A stretch of DNA of 23,811 nucleotides from a virus. The translations under genes and the position numbers were made by a program. The stretch is from the IMG/VR virus record IMGVR_UViG_3300046387_000734, positions 1 to 23,811 of that record; one strand, written 5' to 3'. Positions 2 through 7,119 of the stretch are shown piece after piece. The first letter of the stretch is position 1. The number at the start of each line of letters is the position of its first letter. The notes under the pieces were generated by a model. It worked only from the letters and a program-made list of their open reading frames with translations, was not told where the DNA came from and did not search any database.

Positions 2-325
2 AAGTTGAAATATCCATCAATGAAGCAATTTATTGAGAGTAATTTTGATGTAGAAGAGGTATCATCGAATGTGAATGAGTCTCTTGCTATGCTTTCATCA
101 TGTATTGAGATGGTTTATAATGAAGAAGAGAGTTGGGAGACAGATGATTGTTCTCCAGATGAATTGAAAGACTTTATTGAACAGTTAAACACTAAACAGT
201 TTAAGGATGTTGAAAACTTCTTTGATACCATGCCAAGATTAGAGCATAAAATCAAAGTCAAAAATCCAAATACTGGTGTTGAATCTGATGTAGTATTGGA
301 GGGACTGGCAAGTTTTTTCAGTTAG
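2..325 (+). CDS. 26: gp26-like baseplate hub / tail chaperone protein, 5' truncated by window
   Basis: The reading frame is open from the first bases, so the gene very probably starts upstream; the TTG at 5 and ATG at 20 are unlikely to be the true start. About 107 codons are visible. The C-terminal part carries an acidic helix followed by residues reading DFIEQLNTKQF, FFDTMPRLEHKI and NPNTGV, then VVLEGLASFF at the end. This is the pattern I know from the T4 gp26 / T4_baseplate family. In T4 gp26 is needed for hub assembly with gp51. The next ORF lies in the -1 frame, and the last codons before the TAG stop contain a T-TTT-TTC slippery heptamer preceded by a Shine-Dalgarno-like GGAGGG. The gene may therefore make both a normal and a frameshifted product. 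Family assignment is by recalled sequence pattern. Confidence 0.8.
   Translation, partial: KLKYPSMKQFIESNFDVEEVSSNVNESLAMLSSCIEMVYNEEESWETDDCSPDELKDFIEQLNTKQFKDVENFFDTMPRLEHKIKVKNPNTGVESDVVLEGLASFFS
298..319 (+). promoter_or_regulatory. Putative -1 programmed ribosomal frameshift element (SD-like GGAGGG plus T TTT TTC)
   Basis: GGAGGG (298-303) is followed after 9 nt by TTTTTTC (313-319). In the gp26-like frame the codons are AGT TTT TTC, so the heptamer is in the X XXY YYZ register. A -1 slip continues CAG TTA GGT ATG GCC into the 328-504 ORF and bypasses the TAG at 323-325. An SD-like element about 10 nt upstream is the known stimulator at E. coli dnaX. No start codon lies at a usable distance after this SD, and the 328 ATG has only AGG ending 1 nt upstream. 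I saw no strong downstream stem-loop. Frameshifting itself is inferred. Confidence 0.7.
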
Positions 326-327
326 GT

Positions 328-504
328 ATGGCCCACACGAATCTGGAGTCATACTATAAAATTAATTTTGCCTTGGTTCAGCATCATAAATACTCTTTGA
401 CTGAGATTGAAAACATGATGCCTTGGGAGAGAGATGTTTATGTCACTCTATTGAAACAGTATATTGATGAGGAAAATTTAAAACAACAACAAAGTAGATC
501 ATAG
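328..504 (+). CDS. 58-codon gp51-like ORF, probably the GT-type extension of the gp26-like protein
   Basis: The ORF runs ATG 328 to TAG 502-504 and encodes 58 residues, including YYKINFALVQHHKYSLTEIE and MMPWERDVY, then a Gln-rich end (KQQQSRS). The 'SLTEIENMMPWERDVY' pattern is seen in small phage tail assembly proteins; T4-like annotations often call the gene at this place gp51, the hub assembly catalyst. It lies in the -1 frame relative to the gp26-like gene and directly before tape-measure-like genes, which is the lambda G/GT layout. It has no usable ribosome binding site of its own: AGG at 324-326 is 1 nt from the ATG. It may be expressed only as a frameshift fusion, join(2..319,319..504), adding QLG plus these 58 residues. 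Its stop overlaps the next GTG as TAGTG. Confidence 0.72.
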   Translation: MAHTNLESYYKINFALVQHHKYSLTEIENMMPWERDVYVTLLKQYIDEENLKQQQSRS

Positions 505-1919
505 TGGCGGTTAAAAAATTACCTAAAATAAATGTTACCAAACTCACGGATGTGGGTATGGATAGTGGTGCTGTTACTTCAAAAAAGAGAAGAGGAAGAC
601 CTAAAAAATTACAGACACCTGCAGAGGTAGAAGCAGACATTAACTTAAGAGAATTTCAAAAGGCTCAAAAAAAAGTAAATGCATCTAAGTTGATGGGTTC
701 TCAGGTTAAGAAGACTAATGCAATTTTAATGGAATCAAATAAGATTCTTATGGATATTGCATCTGTTATATCAACTGACTTTACGACAAGGATTGACGGT
801 GAAAAACAAGAACTAAGAGATTTGCAATCTAAAAGACAGAAAGGTGAGGTTGCAGAGAAAGAAGGTAAATTAGAAGGTAAAGGGCAATCAACAAATAAAA
901 TTGGTGCAGCTGCACAAAAAATGATGCAACCTATCATGGGTGCCTTTGATAAAATAAAAGAATTAGTGTCAATTATTGGATTAGGAATACTTGGTAGTGG
1001 AGCACTTGAATTTTTAAAAGATCCAGCAAACCTTGAGAAGGTCAAGGGATTCTTTGATTTTATTGCCAAACATTGGAAATGGGTTTTAGGTGGATTAGGT
1101 GTATTAGTCGCACTTAAGTTTGTAGGGCCAATTATTACTCTTGTTAAAGTTGTAAGAAAGGCAGTTAAAATACTTCTAAAATTTGGTAAATTTGTTAAAA
1201 ATTTGCCGAAAAGATTAAGAGTTACAAGAAAATTAATCCAAAGAGCATTTAAGAAAAAATTTGGAACAAAGGTAGGAACAAAAATAGGAACAAAAATAGG
1301 GCAAAAAGTTACTAAGAAGGTAGCAACTAAAACTGCCACAAAAGTTGCGGTTAAGTCAGCAGGTAAAGGACTTGGAAAGTCAGTATTGAAAAAAATTCCT
1401 CTTGTAGGACTAGGATTAGGTGCAGCATTTGCAATCGATAGGTTAAGAGGGGGTGATTGGAGTGGTGCATTAATGGAATTAGGATCTGGTGCTGCGTCCA
1501 TGATTCCCGGTGTTGGAACTGCTGTATCTGTTGCTCTTGATGCTGGATTGATAGCAAAAGATGTTGTGGATGCAAAAAATCAAGAGGCAACTGAAGGTGG
1601 TGAAGTCACTGCAAGGAAAACAGGTGGAAATATATCAAAAGGAAAACCATATCTTGTTGGTGAAGGTGGCCCAGAATTATTCAAACCAAATATAAGTGGA
1701 TCATTATTGAGGGCGGGTGCTACAGCAGAAACATTAAAAACATTAGCAGAGGATGAATCACCAAACATAATTCAAATGGATTTACCTGCAATTAAATCAG
1801 CACCCCCAACTGTTCCAACAAAATCAGTTCCTGCAAATGAGGTTGAGTTGATAAGTCCTGTTAATACACTGAATGAATATATGTTGGTAGTACCTGATCT
1901 TCTAGGGATATCTGTATGA
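504..1919 (+). CDS. Tape-measure-like tail protein with N-terminal AT-hook-like motif (471 aa)
   Basis: The start is a GTG overlapping the previous stop (TAGTG); no SD is visible, so coupling is likely. Residues 27-35 read KKRRGRPKK, an AT-hook core. Residues 45-125 are charged and helical. Two hydrophobic stretches lie near 153-170 and 192-216. A Lys-rich repeat of GTKxGTKx type covers about 253-290, followed by a Gly/Ala-rich hydrophobic segment at 299-350. Residues 380-395 read GKPYLVGEGGPELFKP, a signature common near the C-terminus of phage tape measure proteins. Its place after the gp26/gp51-like pair agrees with a role in tail length or hub assembly. It is not obviously similar in sequence to T4 gp29 (about 590 aa), so an alternative is a hub-associated structural protein. 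Confidence 0.62.
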   Translation: MAVKKLPKINVTKLTDVGMDSGAVTSKKRRGRPKKLQTPAEVEADINLREFQKAQKKVNASKLMGSQVKKTNAILMESNKILMDIASVISTDFTTRIDGEKQELRDLQSKRQKGEVAEKEGKLEGKGQSTNKIGAAAQKMMQPIMGAFDKIKELVSIIGLGILGSGALEFLKDPANLEKVKGFFDFIAKHWKWVLGGLGVLVALKFVGPIITLVKVVRKAVKILLKFGKFVKNLPKRLRVTRKLIQRAFKKKFGTKVGTKIGTKIGQKVTKKVATKTATKVAVKSAGKGLGKSVLKKIPLVGLGLGAAFAIDRLRGGDWSGALMELGSGAASMIPGVGTAVSVALDAGLIAKDVVDAKNQEATEGGEVTARKTGGNISKGKPYLVGEGGPELFKPNISGSLLRAGATAETLKTLAEDESPNIIQMDLPAIKSAPPTVPTKSVPANEVELISPVNTLNEYMLVVPDLLGISV

Positions 1920-2923
1920 CAACTAACAACGCTGCAGCATCACAATTAAAATTAAATGTAACTAACATTAAAAGTGTGTTGGTTAAAGGTAATAAGAGTA
2001 TGACACGCTTGAAAGCGTTTAAGGCGAAAACAATATTTAATATGGAACAAGATGATTTAAGAAAGAAAGAAGAAGAGTCGTTAGAAGCAGTCAAACCAAA
2101 AAAGAAAAAGATTACAGCAGATAAATCACCAGTCAAATCTAAGGGTGGTATCTTAAATAAGTTGATGACATTTGCTGGTATTATATTAGGTGGTGTTTTA
2201 GTAAATGCATTACCAGCAATACTTAAAAAATTAAGAGATATATTTACATCGGTCTTTAATTTCTTAAAACCTGTTGGTAAAGCAATAATGGGAATTATAA
2301 ACTTCATTAGTGGTGACACGATGGATATGAGTAAATATGATTCTCAGAAAGCAACTGTTGATGATCAATTTAATCAGTTGAAAGAGGCATCAGATCAATT
2401 AAATGAAGACATTAAACCCATAACTGAGGTAGAATCATTACTAGGTGATTCCTCTGAATTGGATGAAGAGGGAGAAATTAAAGGTAAAGAAGAAGTAATT
2501 CAAGATAACCAAGAAACTGAATCAACAATAACACCAACTGACAATTCAATTGATACTAGTGGAATGGTAGAATCAACTACACCAGAGGAGAGAGAAAAGG
2601 CTGCAGTTCAAACTATGAAGACTGATCAGAATGTTCAGAAAAAGAATGAAGGTGGTAAGATAAGTACATCTAAAGGTAATATCAAAGATAGTGTCCCTGT
2701 ATTACTAAGCCCCGGTGAGTTTGTAATCAATCAGAAAATAGCAAAGAGTATTGGATATGAAAAATTAAAACAAATTAATGCAATAACTTCTAATTCTTCT
2801 GCTCAAATATCACCAAAAACACCCAATGATATTTCTATGTTAAATAATGGTAAGAAGAAAGGTAAAACTACAATCATAATGCAAACTCAAGTTGTTGAGA
2901 AAGTCACTCCAGTTCCAGTATAA
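1916..2923 (+). CDS. Second tape-measure-like tail protein (335 aa)
   Basis: ATG 1916 overlaps the preceding TGA by 4 nt, and AGGGA at 1904-1908 is a well-placed SD. The N-terminus is basic and Lys-rich (residues 50-75). A hydrophobic, membrane-like block covers about 80-133 and includes LMTFAGIILGGVLVNALP. Residues 138-245 are acidic, Ser/Thr-rich and probably disordered. Residues 246-289 hold GGKIS, then DSVPVLLSPGEFVINQKIA and a Gly-Tyr/Leu-Ile-Asn tail. This is the classic 'SPGEFVIN' tape-measure C-terminal signature. It differs from the 'GEGGPELF' signature of the gene before it, so the two neighbours may share or split one tape-measure function. Its stop overlaps the next ATG as TAATG. 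Confidence 0.6.
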   Translation: MTTNNAAASQLKLNVTNIKSVLVKGNKSMTRLKAFKAKTIFNMEQDDLRKKEEESLEAVKPKKKKITADKSPVKSKGGILNKLMTFAGIILGGVLVNALPAILKKLRDIFTSVFNFLKPVGKAIMGIINFISGDTMDMSKYDSQKATVDDQFNQLKEASDQLNEDIKPITEVESLLGDSSELDEEGEIKGKEEVIQDNQETESTITPTDNSIDTSGMVESTTPEEREKAAVQTMKTDQNVQKKNEGGKISTSKGNIKDSVPVLLSPGEFVINQKIAKSIGYEKLKQINAITSNSSAQISPKTPNDISMLNNGKKKGKTTIIMQTQVVEKVTPVPV

Positions 2924-4191
2924 TGTCAGCACCAGCAGCAGGCCCATCTAAGTACGATATAATTCAAATCGAAAAGGATGGAGAAACAATTGATCTTAAA
3001 GGTGGTACACTTAGTGTGGACTACTATGAGAGTTTGTATTCTCCAACTGTAACTGCAAAAATTGTATACATGGATGCAGGTGGTAATATCGAAGATAAAA
3101 AGTCATCTAAGTTTGTAAGTGTTAAAGAAGGTTTGCCTATAACAGGATTAGAGAGTGTTAAGATAAAAATATCACCTACTAGAGGTAAAGTCTTAGATTT
3201 TTCAAAAGATCCATTTAAGGTAGATGCTTGTCCAACTTTAAGTAAAGAGGCAAATCGTGAGACAGTTGCATTATCATTAGTTTCACAAAAACAAATAACA
3301 AATGATGAGACACCTATATTCGACAAATATACTGGTAAAATTAGTGATACAGTCAAAAAAATATTAAAAGAAAAATTTAAACTAACAAATGATAAAATTA
3401 AAATAGACCCTACAAGGAATGGATATAATTTTCTGGGCAAGGGTAGAGGTGGACTGAATTTGATTTTAGACTTATGTAGAAGATCAGTTCCTGTAAAGGG
3501 TGATGCTGGATATTTCTTCTATCAAACTAAGAGTGGATACAAATTTAGATCAATTGAATCATTGTTATCTGAAAAACAAAAATTTACTTTTAATTATTTT
3601 GGTGGATTTAAAAAAGATAATACAAAAGATGATAATGATAATAAACTAGTAAGGGAACCTATATTCCAGAAAGATCAAAATGTAAGTCAGGTTTTGAAAG
3701 GTGGAGTATATCGTAGTCGTAATATCTTTTTTGATCCACGCACTTTTTGCTATGAAGAGATTAATTATGACATTAGTGAAAAGGGTGTAAGTAAAACATT
3801 AGGTAAGGCTCCACCATTTGAGAAGGATGTAAAAGGATTTACAAAAACATTTCATCATATTTTAGATGTTGGAAGTTTAGATTCAAATGCAAGCACTGAA
3901 ATAAATAATGATCCTAGATTGTGGCAAGCATCATCTGTAATGAGATATAACTTACTACATTCACAAATAGTAAACATACAAGTTCCATGTAATTCTGAAA
4001 TTGAAGCAGGTGATATTGTACGACTTGAAATAGAATCAATTAGTGATAAAAAAGAAGAGAATCCATATGATGAACAACAAAGTGGTAATTATCTTATATT
4101 AAATCTTTGCCATCATTTTGATTCAAAGAGATCATTTACATCTATGACTTTAGTAAGAGACACTTATGGCAGACGCGGGAGTAAAAAATAA
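2923..4191 (+). CDS. Baseplate hub protein, gp27-like (422 aa)
   Basis: The length is close to T4 gp27 (about 390 aa). The N-terminus (residues 10-50) reads as beta strands of a hub tube-like domain (LKGGTLSVDYYESLY, then TAKIVYMDAGG). Residues 165-210 hold a Gly-rich turn and ILDLCRRSV, as in hub proteins that rebuild a second tube-like domain. The end, residues 387-415, reads SGNYLILNLCHHFD followed by SFTSMTLVRDTYG; 'SGxYLI..xxHxF' is the usual closing strand of phage hub proteins of the gp27/gpD type. It sits directly before the gp5-type OB-fold gene, the partner gp27 binds at the tail tip. TAATG overlaps join it to both neighbours; no clear SD is present at its own start. Confidence 0.68.
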   Translation: MSAPAAGPSKYDIIQIEKDGETIDLKGGTLSVDYYESLYSPTVTAKIVYMDAGGNIEDKKSSKFVSVKEGLPITGLESVKIKISPTRGKVLDFSKDPFKVDACPTLSKEANRETVALSLVSQKQITNDETPIFDKYTGKISDTVKKILKEKFKLTNDKIKIDPTRNGYNFLGKGRGGLNLILDLCRRSVPVKGDAGYFFYQTKSGYKFRSIESLLSEKQKFTFNYFGGFKKDNTKDDNDNKLVREPIFQKDQNVSQVLKGGVYRSRNIFFDPRTFCYEEINYDISEKGVSKTLGKAPPFEKDVKGFTKTFHHILDVGSLDSNASTEINNDPRLWQASSVMRYNLLHSQIVNIQVPCNSEIEAGDIVRLEIESISDKKEENPYDEQQSGNYLILNLCHHFDSKRSFTSMTLVRDTYGRRGSKK

Positions 4192-4988
4192 TGTTTGAAT
4201 TACCTAGTTTTTTTAATTCAAAACTTGAACCTTTTATAGGAAAAGTTGTTTCCCAAAAGGCACAAAAGGCCCAAGTCGGTGGGATGGGATGGGGACATAG
4301 ATTTAAAGTTCGTATCATGGGTACATACTCTGAGAATGATAATGTTGAAGATAAAGATTGCCATTCAGCAGTTGTGATGTTAGGTGTGACTGATGGAAGT
4401 GGTGCTGCAAATAGATTAAAATCTGTAAAAATTACACAAAATGATATTGTTTTTGGATTCTTTTTATCACCGGATCAAAACTTTCCTGTAATTACTGGTG
4501 TGATGGGAAGACAAAATAAAAAACATCTTAAAAACTGTGGTGGTAAATTTGGTGTTGGATCTGGTCATACATCTGACTTAAAGCCTGGTGGAACTGGAAA
4601 AAATGAATTTAATGAACAAAATAATATGCCCACACAGGGTTTAGGTAATGATGGTAAAACTGGTACTGGTGAAGGTAAAGCAGTGAATGATGCAAAACTA
4701 GAAGCAGCAGGTCTTGATCCAAAAAATCAAGAGGTGAGTACAAATCAAGATCCAAAGGGTTTTTCTAACTTTGATTTTACAGGATTAGATCAAGATAGTA
4801 TTAAAGAAATAGTGACTGAGAGTAAGGCATTTGCTGAAAAAGCAGGGAAAGATCTATCTAATTTAAAAGACACTATAATTGAAGAAGCACCGTTTGATGA
4901 ATTGAAAGGGGTTGCTGAAAGATTGACACCAATACTAAAAGAAACTGCAGAAAGTTTTGATATTGAAAGTACCTTTGAAATGTTCTAA
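4191..4988 (+). CDS. 5: gp5-like baseplate hub OB-fold protein without lysozyme domain (265 aa)
   Basis: Residues about 14-112 match a gp5/VgrG-type OB-fold: GKVVSQKAQKAQ, HRFKVRIMGTYSE, CHSAVVMLGVTDGSG, a gap-filling KITQNDIVFGFFLSPDQ, then FPVITGVMGRQN. The order 'formula for flow, pressure, version of GxxxG at the end' is that of T4 gp5 N-terminal domains. The rest (residues 115-265) is Gly/Asn-rich and then acidic and helical; I see no T4-lysozyme catalytic region and no C-terminal beta-helix repeats. A separate beta-spike gene lies at 7119-7649, so the three domains of T4 gp5 appear to be split or reduced here. GGGAG at 4177-4181 is a good SD 9 nt before the ATG. Confidence 0.72.
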   Translation: MFELPSFFNSKLEPFIGKVVSQKAQKAQVGGMGWGHRFKVRIMGTYSENDNVEDKDCHSAVVMLGVTDGSGAANRLKSVKITQNDIVFGFFLSPDQNFPVITGVMGRQNKKHLKNCGGKFGVGSGHTSDLKPGGTGKNEFNEQNNMPTQGLGNDGKTGTGEGKAVNDAKLEAAGLDPKNQEVSTNQDPKGFSNFDFTGLDQDSIKEIVTESKAFAEKAGKDLSNLKDTIIEEAPFDELKGVAERLTPILKETAESFDIESTFEMF

Positions 4989-5013: not shown

Positions 5014-7119
5014 ATGGCAGACAAATTCTTACCAGAAATTAGTGAAATTACACAAACTTTCAAGGAAAAATCACCAATACCAAGTGTATTAAACCTTGAA
5101 CAGAAAAAAGTTTTCACTCAATTGATTAAGGACAATCCTTATGGGTTGCAAGATAATATCAAAACTTTAAAGGAAAATTTTCCTTCAGATTTTGGTGGAG
5201 TTTTTCCAACCTCTGAGTCTGAATTAGAGTCTTTTGATAAAAATAAGTTTGCTTCATTGCTTGATAGGCAGAAGTCATATGGTGACATAGCAACACTATT
5301 TCCTCTTGAACCACTTTCTGTAACCACAGGTGAGATTATTATTTTACCTGATGGTACAAGTGATAGATTCTTCGAGAAGGTCGAAGCGAAGATGCAAAAT
5401 TATTTTAACTCTATATCAAAGGTAAATGATTTCGCTACAGATTTACCAAATGAATTAAGTAAACTGACCAAATCCATTGGTGCTGCATCACAAACATTTG
5501 TTGGCAGAATATCAAATGCTCTACAGGATAGTTTAGTTGGTTTTATTGACGGAGGTATGGCAAAACTTGCAAGTCAGGTATTTGCAAGTAAAGTTCCCGG
5601 TGCAACAGGTATTGTAACAGGACTAGCAGGTCAACTTTCAGGTGTAACTGATAAGTTGTTCAGTGGTATGGAGTGTCTAACATCAAAGGTAACTGGTGCA
5701 ATGGGTGGTGTGATTAAGGACATGTTAGGTGGAATGACTAAAAATATGCTCAATGCTCCGACTTGTGCAATTCAACAGTTTATCGGTGGGTTGACAAATA
5801 AAATTGCAGATTCAATGCAATCAATCACAAAACCATTACTTAGTCCGATACTTGGTATTCTTGGCCCAATCGGTGCTAAGTTTGATGTAAAGGATACCAT
5901 AATGGGTGGTATTGATTTTATGAAGAAAGCAGGTAATCTTTTCAAATGTGCACCTCCACTCAAGCAAACATCTTCTTCAAAGTTTGTGATTGATGGTGGA
6001 CTTAAGAAAGATAAGACTCAAGGTGAAAGTCAAGGACTTTTAGATCAAGCATTTGGTGCAGCATCTACAGCATCAGGATTGATTGATAAAGCAAAAGGAT
6101 TTTTAGATAGTGGTGTTCCTTCAGGACTGAGTAAGTTTGAAGAACAGTATGGACAATGGAAAATATTTGGATCAACAGTCGGTGAAGCAGCAGATCAAGG
6201 AATTGGTGGTGGTAACTGTTATACTGGTAATAATTTTAGTTGTGGCCCTGCAAACATAGACATCTTTGGTGGTAGTGGTCAAGGTGCAACAGGTAAAGTC
6301 ATACTCGGAAACTTTATATCTAAGTTTGATAAAGAGGATATGTTTGGTACACTATCAAGAACAGCAAGTATCATTGGTGTTGATATCACAAATCCGGGTG
6401 AAGGATATGCAGAAGGCCCATTAATTGATTTTAATGATAAGTGTAATCAAGGTCGTGGTGCATATGGTAAAGCAATCGTAGATAAAAACATGAAATCACC
6501 AACCTATGGTCAGGTGACTTCAATCGTAATACTTAGCCCCGGTGAAAATTTCCCAACAGATGGATCTGAGGAAAAGGAAGCATTTATAAGAGATGTTATT
6601 ATTGAAGATCCCGGAATTGGATATGAAGATGCTTCTATTTCAGATGACATTAGACCAATCATTCAAAATGGTCGTATTGCTGCGATTGAAATTGTAGAAC
6701 AAATACCTTATAATAGATTACCAGACCTATCAGTTGAATCAGAAACTGGATATGGAGCTGTTATTCGACCTATATTATCTACAGAAAGAGATGAAAGAAG
6801 AACTGATCCAATTCAGGCAGGTGTATTTAAGGTTGTTCAATGTGTGGGAGCATTTTCATCAGGAACAACGCAACAAGAAACTACACAACTTGATGTTGTA
6901 AGAGAAGTTGAAGAGACTGCATCAACACCTGTAACAACTACAACCACAGAGACAAATGTTTCCGACACCACAACCGAGACTACTACAAGTAGCACTACTC
7001 AAACTAACACAACTAACAACACAAGTCAGCAAACGACTGGACAGAGTGACCCTCCTTCTAATAATAACGATTCTGGTGGTAGCGGGTCTGAGGGATCAGG
7101 TGGGGGTTACGGATACTAA
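5014..7119 (+). CDS. Virion structural protein, probable baseplate/tail-tip component (701 aa)
   Basis: I do not recognise a T4 orthologue. The N-terminal 150 residues are charged and helical. Residues 160-310 are Gly/Met/Ala-rich amphipathic repeats (GMAKLASQVFASKVPGA, AMGGVIKDMLGGMTKNML). Residues about 450-590 hold beta repeats with NPGEGY, SPGENF and DPGIGY turns, a unit common in marine T4-like virion proteins. Residues 618-680 form a Thr/Ser-rich linker and the last 15 residues are Gly/Ser with a GGGYGY end, which suggests a flexible, exposed tail. It lies between the gp5-like OB-fold gene and the beta-spike, so a tail-tip position is inferred. A late box and SD precede it; its stop overlaps the next ATG (TAATG). 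Confidence 0.55.
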   Translation: MADKFLPEISEITQTFKEKSPIPSVLNLEQKKVFTQLIKDNPYGLQDNIKTLKENFPSDFGGVFPTSESELESFDKNKFASLLDRQKSYGDIATLFPLEPLSVTTGEIIILPDGTSDRFFEKVEAKMQNYFNSISKVNDFATDLPNELSKLTKSIGAASQTFVGRISNALQDSLVGFIDGGMAKLASQVFASKVPGATGIVTGLAGQLSGVTDKLFSGMECLTSKVTGAMGGVIKDMLGGMTKNMLNAPTCAIQQFIGGLTNKIADSMQSITKPLLSPILGILGPIGAKFDVKDTIMGGIDFMKKAGNLFKCAPPLKQTSSSKFVIDGGLKKDKTQGESQGLLDQAFGAASTASGLIDKAKGFLDSGVPSGLSKFEEQYGQWKIFGSTVGEAADQGIGGGNCYTGNNFSCGPANIDIFGGSGQGATGKVILGNFISKFDKEDMFGTLSRTASIIGVDITNPGEGYAEGPLIDFNDKCNQGRGAYGKAIVDKNMKSPTYGQVTSIVILSPGENFPTDGSEEKEAFIRDVIIEDPGIGYEDASISDDIRPIIQNGRIAAIEIVEQIPYNRLPDLSVESETGYGAVIRPILSTERDERRTDPIQAGVFKVVQCVGAFSSGTTQQETTQLDVVREVEETASTPVTTTTTETNVSDTTTETTTSSTTQTNTTNNTSQQTTGQSDPPSNNNDSGGSGSEGSGGGYGY

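Follow-up and report, generated by a model that had tools for sequence, protein, structure and literature searches.

Frameshifting of the G/GT kind is textbook knowledge for long-tailed phages. In lambda, as in P2 (E/E'), HK97 and others, the first ORF, located ahead of the tape measure gene, gives a short product that a slip close to its end extends in the -1 frame; the slip heptamer of lambda is G GGA AAG. A comparable signal in E. coli dnaX consists of a Shine-Dalgarno (SD)-like element about 10 nt upstream, a slippery heptamer (A AAA AAG) and a hairpin about 5 nt downstream. For T4, a 2022 paper by Vladimirov, Gautam and Davidson reportedly treats gp26 and gp51 as tail assembly chaperones, going by its title.

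A passage of the 2016 review by Atkins describes G-T frameshifting as widely conserved "except T4" and gives an SD spacing of 9-14 nt for -1 shifts (PMC5009743). In Vandenendeviridae and Andersonviridae, a -1 slip is described in part of PMC12846349; it takes place on GTTTTT, a conserved T-rich motif towards the end of TAC-N, the short tail assembly chaperone, and the downstream part is likewise annotated there as a separate hypothetical protein. Because the same source cites the 2022 paper, which it credits with poly-T slip signals in T4-like TAC-N genes, the slip in T4-like phages may already be published. Some T4-like phages have been found to carry one short and one fused gene in place of the slip, according to an excerpt of PMC10885494. 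The passages of these accounts that deal with the T4-like chaperone slip state neither a downstream hairpin, nor a gp51 without a start codon, nor the spread over the families considered below.

Here we analyzed a 23,811-base IMG/VR fragment of a marine T4-like virus (the window), which starts inside a gp26-like gene. The site near its beginning is like that of lambda in its layout, with a short product and a predicted -1 extension from close to the end of the first ORF, ahead of a likely tape measure gene, and like HK97 in that the gp26 model is moderately similar to its chaperone. It differs from lambda in the heptamer, T TTT TTC, in the protein family, which is PF12322 and not lambda G, and in the SD-like element and downstream hairpin that flank the site; the binding roles of the products would be those of lambda by analogy. 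With dnaX it shares the order of SD-like element, slippery heptamer and hairpin, but gene and product are unrelated, the heptamer differs, and a search of positions 240-440 against Rfam gave two chance-level matches and none at the gathering score. The signal of the window would work like a dnaX-type tripartite signal, but we do not class it as a member. The same two proteins are found in T4, where they are encoded by two genes on opposite strands with no slip heptamer, whereas the Vandenendeviridae and Andersonviridae are other phage families with a shorter motif (PMC12846349, in part).

Layout of the window

The features of the junction are listed in Table 1. The window holds just the final 107 codons of the gp26-like gene, which starts before it; a full-length counterpart of this gene (L003) has 99% identity over the window's gp26 part. 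An earlier note on this DNA had read a GGAGGG, a 9-nt gap and a T TTT TTC in X XXY YYZ register, and these coordinates proved right when read directly. The gp51-like ORF also lies, as claimed there, in the -1 frame relative to gp26, this frame being open from 289 to 504. The same note had called the module complete: the SD-like element, the heptamer and the -1 ORF are all present, but the hairpin had been overlooked.

Table 1. Features at the gp26/gp51 junction of the window and directly downstream
Feature	Positions	Strand	Basis or remarks
gp26-like gene, C-terminal 107 codons (short tail assembly chaperone, TAC-N)	2-325	+	PF12322 T4_baseplate 1.4e-29; phrog_150 baseplate hub 6.4e-29
SD-like element GGAGGG	298-303	+	9-nt spacer (304-312), then the heptamer
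Slippery heptamer T TTT TTC	313-319	+	In phase with the frame from base 2 to TAG; AGT TAG directly after
TAG stop of the short product	323-325	+	TAG, TAA or TGA in relatives
Probable stimulatory hairpin	325-355	+	5 nt past the heptamer; fold and covariation
-1 frame extension (TAC-NC-specific part, annotated elsewhere as gp51)	319-504	+	CAG TTA GGT ATG ..., giving FFQLGMAH...
58-aa ORF, a separate gp51 gene by usual annotation; independent initiation improbable	328-504	+	ORF listing
Putative tape measure protein, first part	504-1919	+	PHROG families named peptidase, endolysin and, weakly, tape measure
Putative tape measure protein, second part	1916-2923	+	Several weak tape-measure PHROG matches

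The gp51 part is matched by phrog_634, baseplate hub assembly catalyst, over 328-501 (2e-28), and a Pfam search of it gave no convincing match. Judged by such sequence matches, both products are homologous to the T4 gp26 and gp51 families. The site precedes genes with weak tape-measure matches, which would be the lambda layout, and in the annotation of Caulobacter phage Cr30 a tail tape measure gene lies downstream of the site with one small ORF between. The putative tape measure region of the window (504-2923) is made of two ORFs with an ATGA overlap (504-1919 and 1916-2923), whereas S-CAM4 and S-CAM1 have a single long ORF (2.6 and 3.1 kb, respectively) after the gp26/gp51 site. Elsewhere in the window, phrog_1922, baseplate hub subunit and tail lysozyme, is matched over its positions 20-199 by ORF 4191-4988 and over 233-654 by the neighboring ORF 5014-7119, so the hub gene looks split in two.

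Conservation of the heptamer and the frame relation

Homologous loci were collected from the best 80 IMG/VR loci by the gp26 part, three scans with the gp51 part (best 80 each), a fourth scan (2 loci) and named phage records; the window itself (L081) and T4 (L082) were excluded. The patterns of the gp26-part scan and of the first gp51-part scan do not span the slip site, while the later gp51-part queries begin at the slip-site FF and one of the six peptide patterns spans the site, which may slightly favor loci having it. In all of the best 80 gp26-part loci, a TTTTTTC begins 10 nt ahead of the gp26 stop and gp51 lies in the -1 frame. Over the whole set, gp26 and gp51 stand in the -1 relation in 336 of the 339 scanned loci, which are not independent because loci of different scans overlap. 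The three others are an Aeromonas locus with a fused gp51 (L096) and a truncated one (L264), both without a gp26 match, and L060, which was dropped since its match is an upstream segment in another frame, the junction itself being normal. Further counts were made on the 333 loci with enough flank, from which representatives were taken at 80% identity (97) and 90% identity (186).

Of the 336 loci with the -1 relation, 335 have an in-phase TTTTTT[C/T/A] that begins 7-16 nt ahead of the gp26 stop (276 TTTTTTC, 57 TTTTTTT and 2 TTTTTTA). The earlier note had named a broken heptamer or another frame relation in homologues as contrary evidence; nearly all of the scanned loci keep both the heptamer and the -1 relation. 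The sole locus with the -1 relation and no heptamer (L136, around 1504) has its gp26 end missing, possibly by an assembly deletion. Motifs of the form H_HH.U_UU.Y rank among the most efficient in E. coli, as a passage of PMC4066793 states.

The conservation is seen at the level of codons. Among the 97 representatives, the codon before the heptamer's TTT ends in T (AGT, GAT, TCT, GCT, AAT or GGT; 65% expected from codon usage) while its residue varies between Ser, Asp, Ala, Asn and Gly, and the first Phe codon is TTT against a background of 68%. Of 4850 other positions in the last 50 gp26 codons, 2 have an in-phase T TTT TT, compared with 97 of 97 at the site, the representatives having been taken from loci with the heptamer (335 of 336 before that choice). 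In the 22 window ORFs scanned, which offer 7626 codon-phase positions, TTTTTT[C/T] stands in phase 3 times, and only the one at 313 has a preceding SD-like stretch; slippery-type heptamers of any letters number 40 in all, and of the 37 besides these three, 3 have such a stretch. When IMG/VR was scanned with a protein-free DNA pattern (GAGG, gap, TTTTTTC, stop, GTATG), all 80 of the matches listed were gp26(0)/gp51(-1) junctions, the pattern being shaped on the window's group and some loci being contigs already in the set.

Among named records, 18 of the 22 inspected are of the frameshift type, and all 18 have TTTTTTN (13 C, 3 T and 2 G). They span Kyanoviridae, Llyrvirus, Eurybiavirus, Caulobacter Cr30, Pseudomonas pf16, two Vibrio phages, of which ValKK3 is a Schizotequatrovirus, and Pootjesviridae. 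In the Rhizobium and Sinorhizobium phages of the last family (L342 and L343, junction near 1200), T TTT TTG replaces T TTT TTC at the same place. Several loci (L020, L036, L041, L066 and others) carry a second in-phase heptamer, A AAA AAT, 64 nt upstream of the gp26 stop.

The SD-like element

The spacing of 9 nt in the window is within the 9-14 nt range of dnaX-type signals. An anti-SD match of at least 4 nt at -19 to -8 is found in 86 of the 97 representatives (89%), compared with 11% of 3298 control windows. Synonymous randomization, however, still gives a match of at least 4 nt in 87%, against the 89% observed. Matches of at least 5 nt are seen in 43%, compared with 27% after randomization (200 randomizations, maximum 42%). 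The Glu codon at the SD site is GAG in 59 of 76 cases and GAA in 17, whereas the last 50 codons, including the site, have 212 GAG and 336 GAA. The conserved residues LEGL account for most of the SD-like stretch, and on top of this GAG is preferred over its synonym. The element to which the earlier note had pointed is present and common in relatives, but it is largely forced by coding.

The downstream hairpin

In the window, 325-335 are predicted to pair with 344-346 and 348-355, with A347 bulged (-12.9 kcal/mol, z -2.97). Averaged over the set, folding is strongest directly after the heptamer: the mean z is -2.19, -2.50, -2.48 and -1.52 for folding windows starting 0, 3, 6 and 9 nt after it, and lies between -0.75 and +0.38 at other offsets from -120 to +90. 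Compared with a randomization that preserves the -1-frame protein, the mean energy is -9.4 versus -4.2 kcal/mol (mean z -2.27), while control windows give z values of -0.35 and -0.69.

The hairpin alignment of the window's group was built from 97 of 186 sequences (from the gp26-part scan, the first gp51-part scan, L085-L087 and the window), from which L078, with an insertion, and two identical stretches were removed, leaving 94 distinct sequences. In these, 91.0% of the paired cells are complementary, compared with 27-46% when one arm is slid by 1-3 columns. Double-change cells number 17, versus 3.6 in shuffles, but 25 and 26 when the arm is slid by 2 columns. One pair covaries (U-A in 69, A-U in 8, G-C in 3 and G-U in 1), and there substitutions at the wobble position of the codon following the ATG go together with substitutions in a Glu, Ala or Val codon of the opposite arm. 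RNAalifold with default scoring found no consensus structure in the 94-sequence alignment; with RIBOSUM scoring and without outliers, the hairpin appears.

The hairpin folds in 83 of the 94 and does not in 11. Among these 11, L065, L143, L153 and L172 also lack the gp51 ATG, having CTG or CTA, and the other seven retain it. S-RIM2, S-SSM5, ACG-2014d and pf16 do not beat synonymous controls for the hairpin, pf16 having a strong stem further downstream, and in other clades it occurs in other registers or is not evident. We regard the hairpin at 325-355, on its fold and pairing pattern, as a probable stimulatory element.

Start codons of gp51

Between the heptamer and the conserved YY of gp51, 112 of 333 loci and 27 of 97 representatives have no ATG, GTG or TTG, 8 further representatives have GTG or TTG only, and 62 have an ATG. 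In those 27 representatives gp51 can hardly be a separate gene. The records without a start codon before conserved gp51 include S-CAM4, S-RIM2, ACG-2014d and Melnitz-2 (4 of the 18 frameshift-type records); those of S-CAM4 and ACG-2014d omit gp51, and those of S-RIM2 and Melnitz-2 start it within the conserved part. In an alignment of 16 sequences, conservation of the -1 frame reaches back to the heptamer's FF, with the consensus FFRIALxHxxLExYY.

Where an ATG exists, no clear SD precedes it. The ATG of the window (328-330) has no usable SD, as the earlier note had pointed out, and sits in the 5' arm of the hairpin. The same is borne out, and no clear SD for the second ORF was found, among the 64 representatives with a nearby -1-frame ATG: the SD match 5-16 nt upstream is below 3 nt in 36, 3 nt in 26 and 4 nt, the maximum, in 2. 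Since the ATG is part of the stem in the window's group, it may owe its presence there to the stem. In the Vibrio, Cr30 and Rhizobium/Sinorhizobium phages the ATG overlaps the gp26 stop (TAATG or TGATG), so some separate initiation is possible in them. On the sequences compared, gp51 cannot in general be made by initiation at an ATG of its own.

T4 and the two-gene type

Four of the 22 named records are of a two-gene type, namely T4, Aes508, Abraxas and Mm5. In T4, gp26 ends ...GLKEFFELL, adjoining the slip point, and gp51 (249 aa) matches the same Pfam family as gp26, has the extension in addition and reads straight through; no slip heptamer was found at the corresponding places. T4 thus encodes the short form and the long form separately. 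The proposal in the earlier note that the T4 pair gp26/gp51 corresponds here to one frameshifted pair is supported for the window, but in T4 itself the two lie on opposite strands and gp51 is a gp26-like protein plus extension. Both genes of Acinetobacter phage Abraxas are annotated as tape measure protein assembly chaperone. Morganella phage Mm5 (L345, 1051-2333) has a fused gp51 followed, unlike T4, by a tandem ORF on the same strand that is gp26-like by eye.

In a tree of 21 gp26/gp51 N-parts, the 14 frameshift-type rows fall on one side of a branch (91/90, not starred) and the two-gene type on the other. The putative gp26-like ORF of Mm5 falls beside the gp51 rows on the longest branch, and the tree did not confirm its identity as gp26. 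Because the tree is unrooted and has long branches, and because of the position of the Mm5 ORF, it does not reveal in which direction the change went or how many duplications there were.

Predicted structure of gp26

The AlphaFold2 model of full gp26 (L003) has a pLDDT of 85. When its residues 1-95 were compared with solved structures by VIA-align, the best matches were 3fgx (Z 7.5), the HK97 tail assembly chaperone 2ob9 (Z 7.5) and YqbN 3klu (Z 7.4); we take 3fgx and 3klu to be chaperone relatives. The next neighbors were at Z 5.2 and then 2.2, and the top Z is below the tool's caution line of 8. Foldseek against the PDB gave nothing significant for the model (2ob9 at E 1.5), and against predicted viral proteins its best named matches were T4-like baseplate hub proteins. 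A gp26 profile (alignment A1, including T4-type rows) found nothing convincing among the sequences of solved structures. The predicted model moderately resembles solved tail assembly chaperones, which is supporting evidence and not proof, as the Foldseek E-values are not significant.

Discussion

We consider it very probable that, at this site, one gene gives two tail assembly chaperones through a programmed -1 ribosomal frameshift. The interpretation as a lambda G/GT-type frameshift, put forward in the earlier note, is supported by the conservation of the heptamer, by gp51 parts without start codons and by the fused homologue in T4. We infer the slippage itself, its rate, the action of each element and the binding roles as follows. 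Most ribosomes would read gp26 to the TAG at 323 and release the short chaperone (TAC-N). A minority would pause at T TTT TTC, held between GGAGGG, paired to 16S rRNA, and the hairpin that begins 5 nt further on; the two tRNAs would slip back by one base and reading would resume at CAG (319), giving TAC-NC, made of gp26 and some 61 residues of "gp51". If lambda G/GT is a guide, the tape measure protein encoded just downstream would be coated by many short copies, and a few long copies would recruit tail tube subunits. As a conserved slip signal sits at the gp26 end, the separately annotated gp51 is probably just the tail of the longer gp26 version.

It has to be considered whether the frameshift is real but the products are baseplate hub factors, as the T4 naming implies, and not chaperones of the tape measure. 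The database names (baseplate hub, hub assembly catalyst) favor this, the chaperone fold match is moderate, and the tape-measure identity of the next genes is weak. However, a short and a long form made by a -1 slip and located before a likely tape measure gene, the fold match of gp26 to the HK97 chaperone, the chaperone annotation of both Abraxas genes and the title of Vladimirov et al. 2022, in which T4 gp26 and gp51 are reportedly tail assembly chaperones, make the hub reading unlikely.

Termination-reinitiation that uses the ATG at 328, just past the end of gp26, would make gp51 a separate small gene. The ATG lies 2 nt past the TAG in the window, the stop/ATG overlap in two Vibrio phages, Cr30 and two Rhizobium/Sinorhizobium phages permits coupling, and all 17 annotated frameshift-type records give gp51 as separate or omit it. 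Against this, more than a quarter of the representatives (27 of 97) lack any start codon before the conserved region, there is no SD, the window ATG is buried in a hairpin, and a bare ATG would need no T TTT TTN register, which is kept in 335 of 336 loci. We therefore regard separate initiation as very unlikely. Still less probable is a fusion made by transcriptional slippage. Six or more T in a row are found in 335 of 336 loci, but in 276 of the 335 a C follows the six counted T, which is short for polymerase slippage; two Rhizobium/Sinorhizobium phages have TTTTTTG; and the register in codons, the SD-like element upstream and the hairpin 5 nt downstream are features of ribosomal signals. A sequencing or assembly error within one gene, for which a homopolymer is a classic site, is next to impossible: the -1 relation recurs in 336 of the 339 loci, which come from overlapping scans and give 97 non-redundant ones, and also in 18 named records, from isolates or single cells, that span several families. 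We rejected such an error, an independent gp51 gene and transcriptional slippage as the principal route.

Returning to a programmed slip that makes two chaperones, we think it likely, with less assurance than for the slip itself, that in the wider T4 superfamily gp51 is not a gene but the -1 frameshift tail of gp26, made through a conserved slip signal that has three parts in the window's group. As part of the same likely reading, its scope would take in Kyanoviridae, Eurybiavirus, Llyrvirus, Pootjesviridae, Caulobacter Cr30, Pseudomonas pf16 and the straboviral Schizotequatrovirus, T4 would be derived, and its core lineage would have replaced the slip by duplication, one copy losing the extension and one keeping it in frame. 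We infer that the two-gene state of T4 is derived because the slip is widespread in other long-tailed phages, as a passage of PMC5009743 has it.

The relatives of the window's gp26 part number 482 phage-collection records, with GenBank and RefSeq copies counted apart. Of the 18 frameshift-type named records, 17 are annotated, and gp26 and gp51 are joined in none of these 17. Many marine phage genomes may have gp51 wrongly annotated as a gene of its own or not annotated. The sampled T4 relatives outside the core straboviruses carry the signal, in contrast to the "except T4" in the passage of PMC5009743. If the reading is true, T4-like tails would be unified with the lambda-type rule of one gene giving two chaperones by a slip, and the frameshift and two-gene types would form a natural pair of solutions to one dosage problem, recoding versus duplication.
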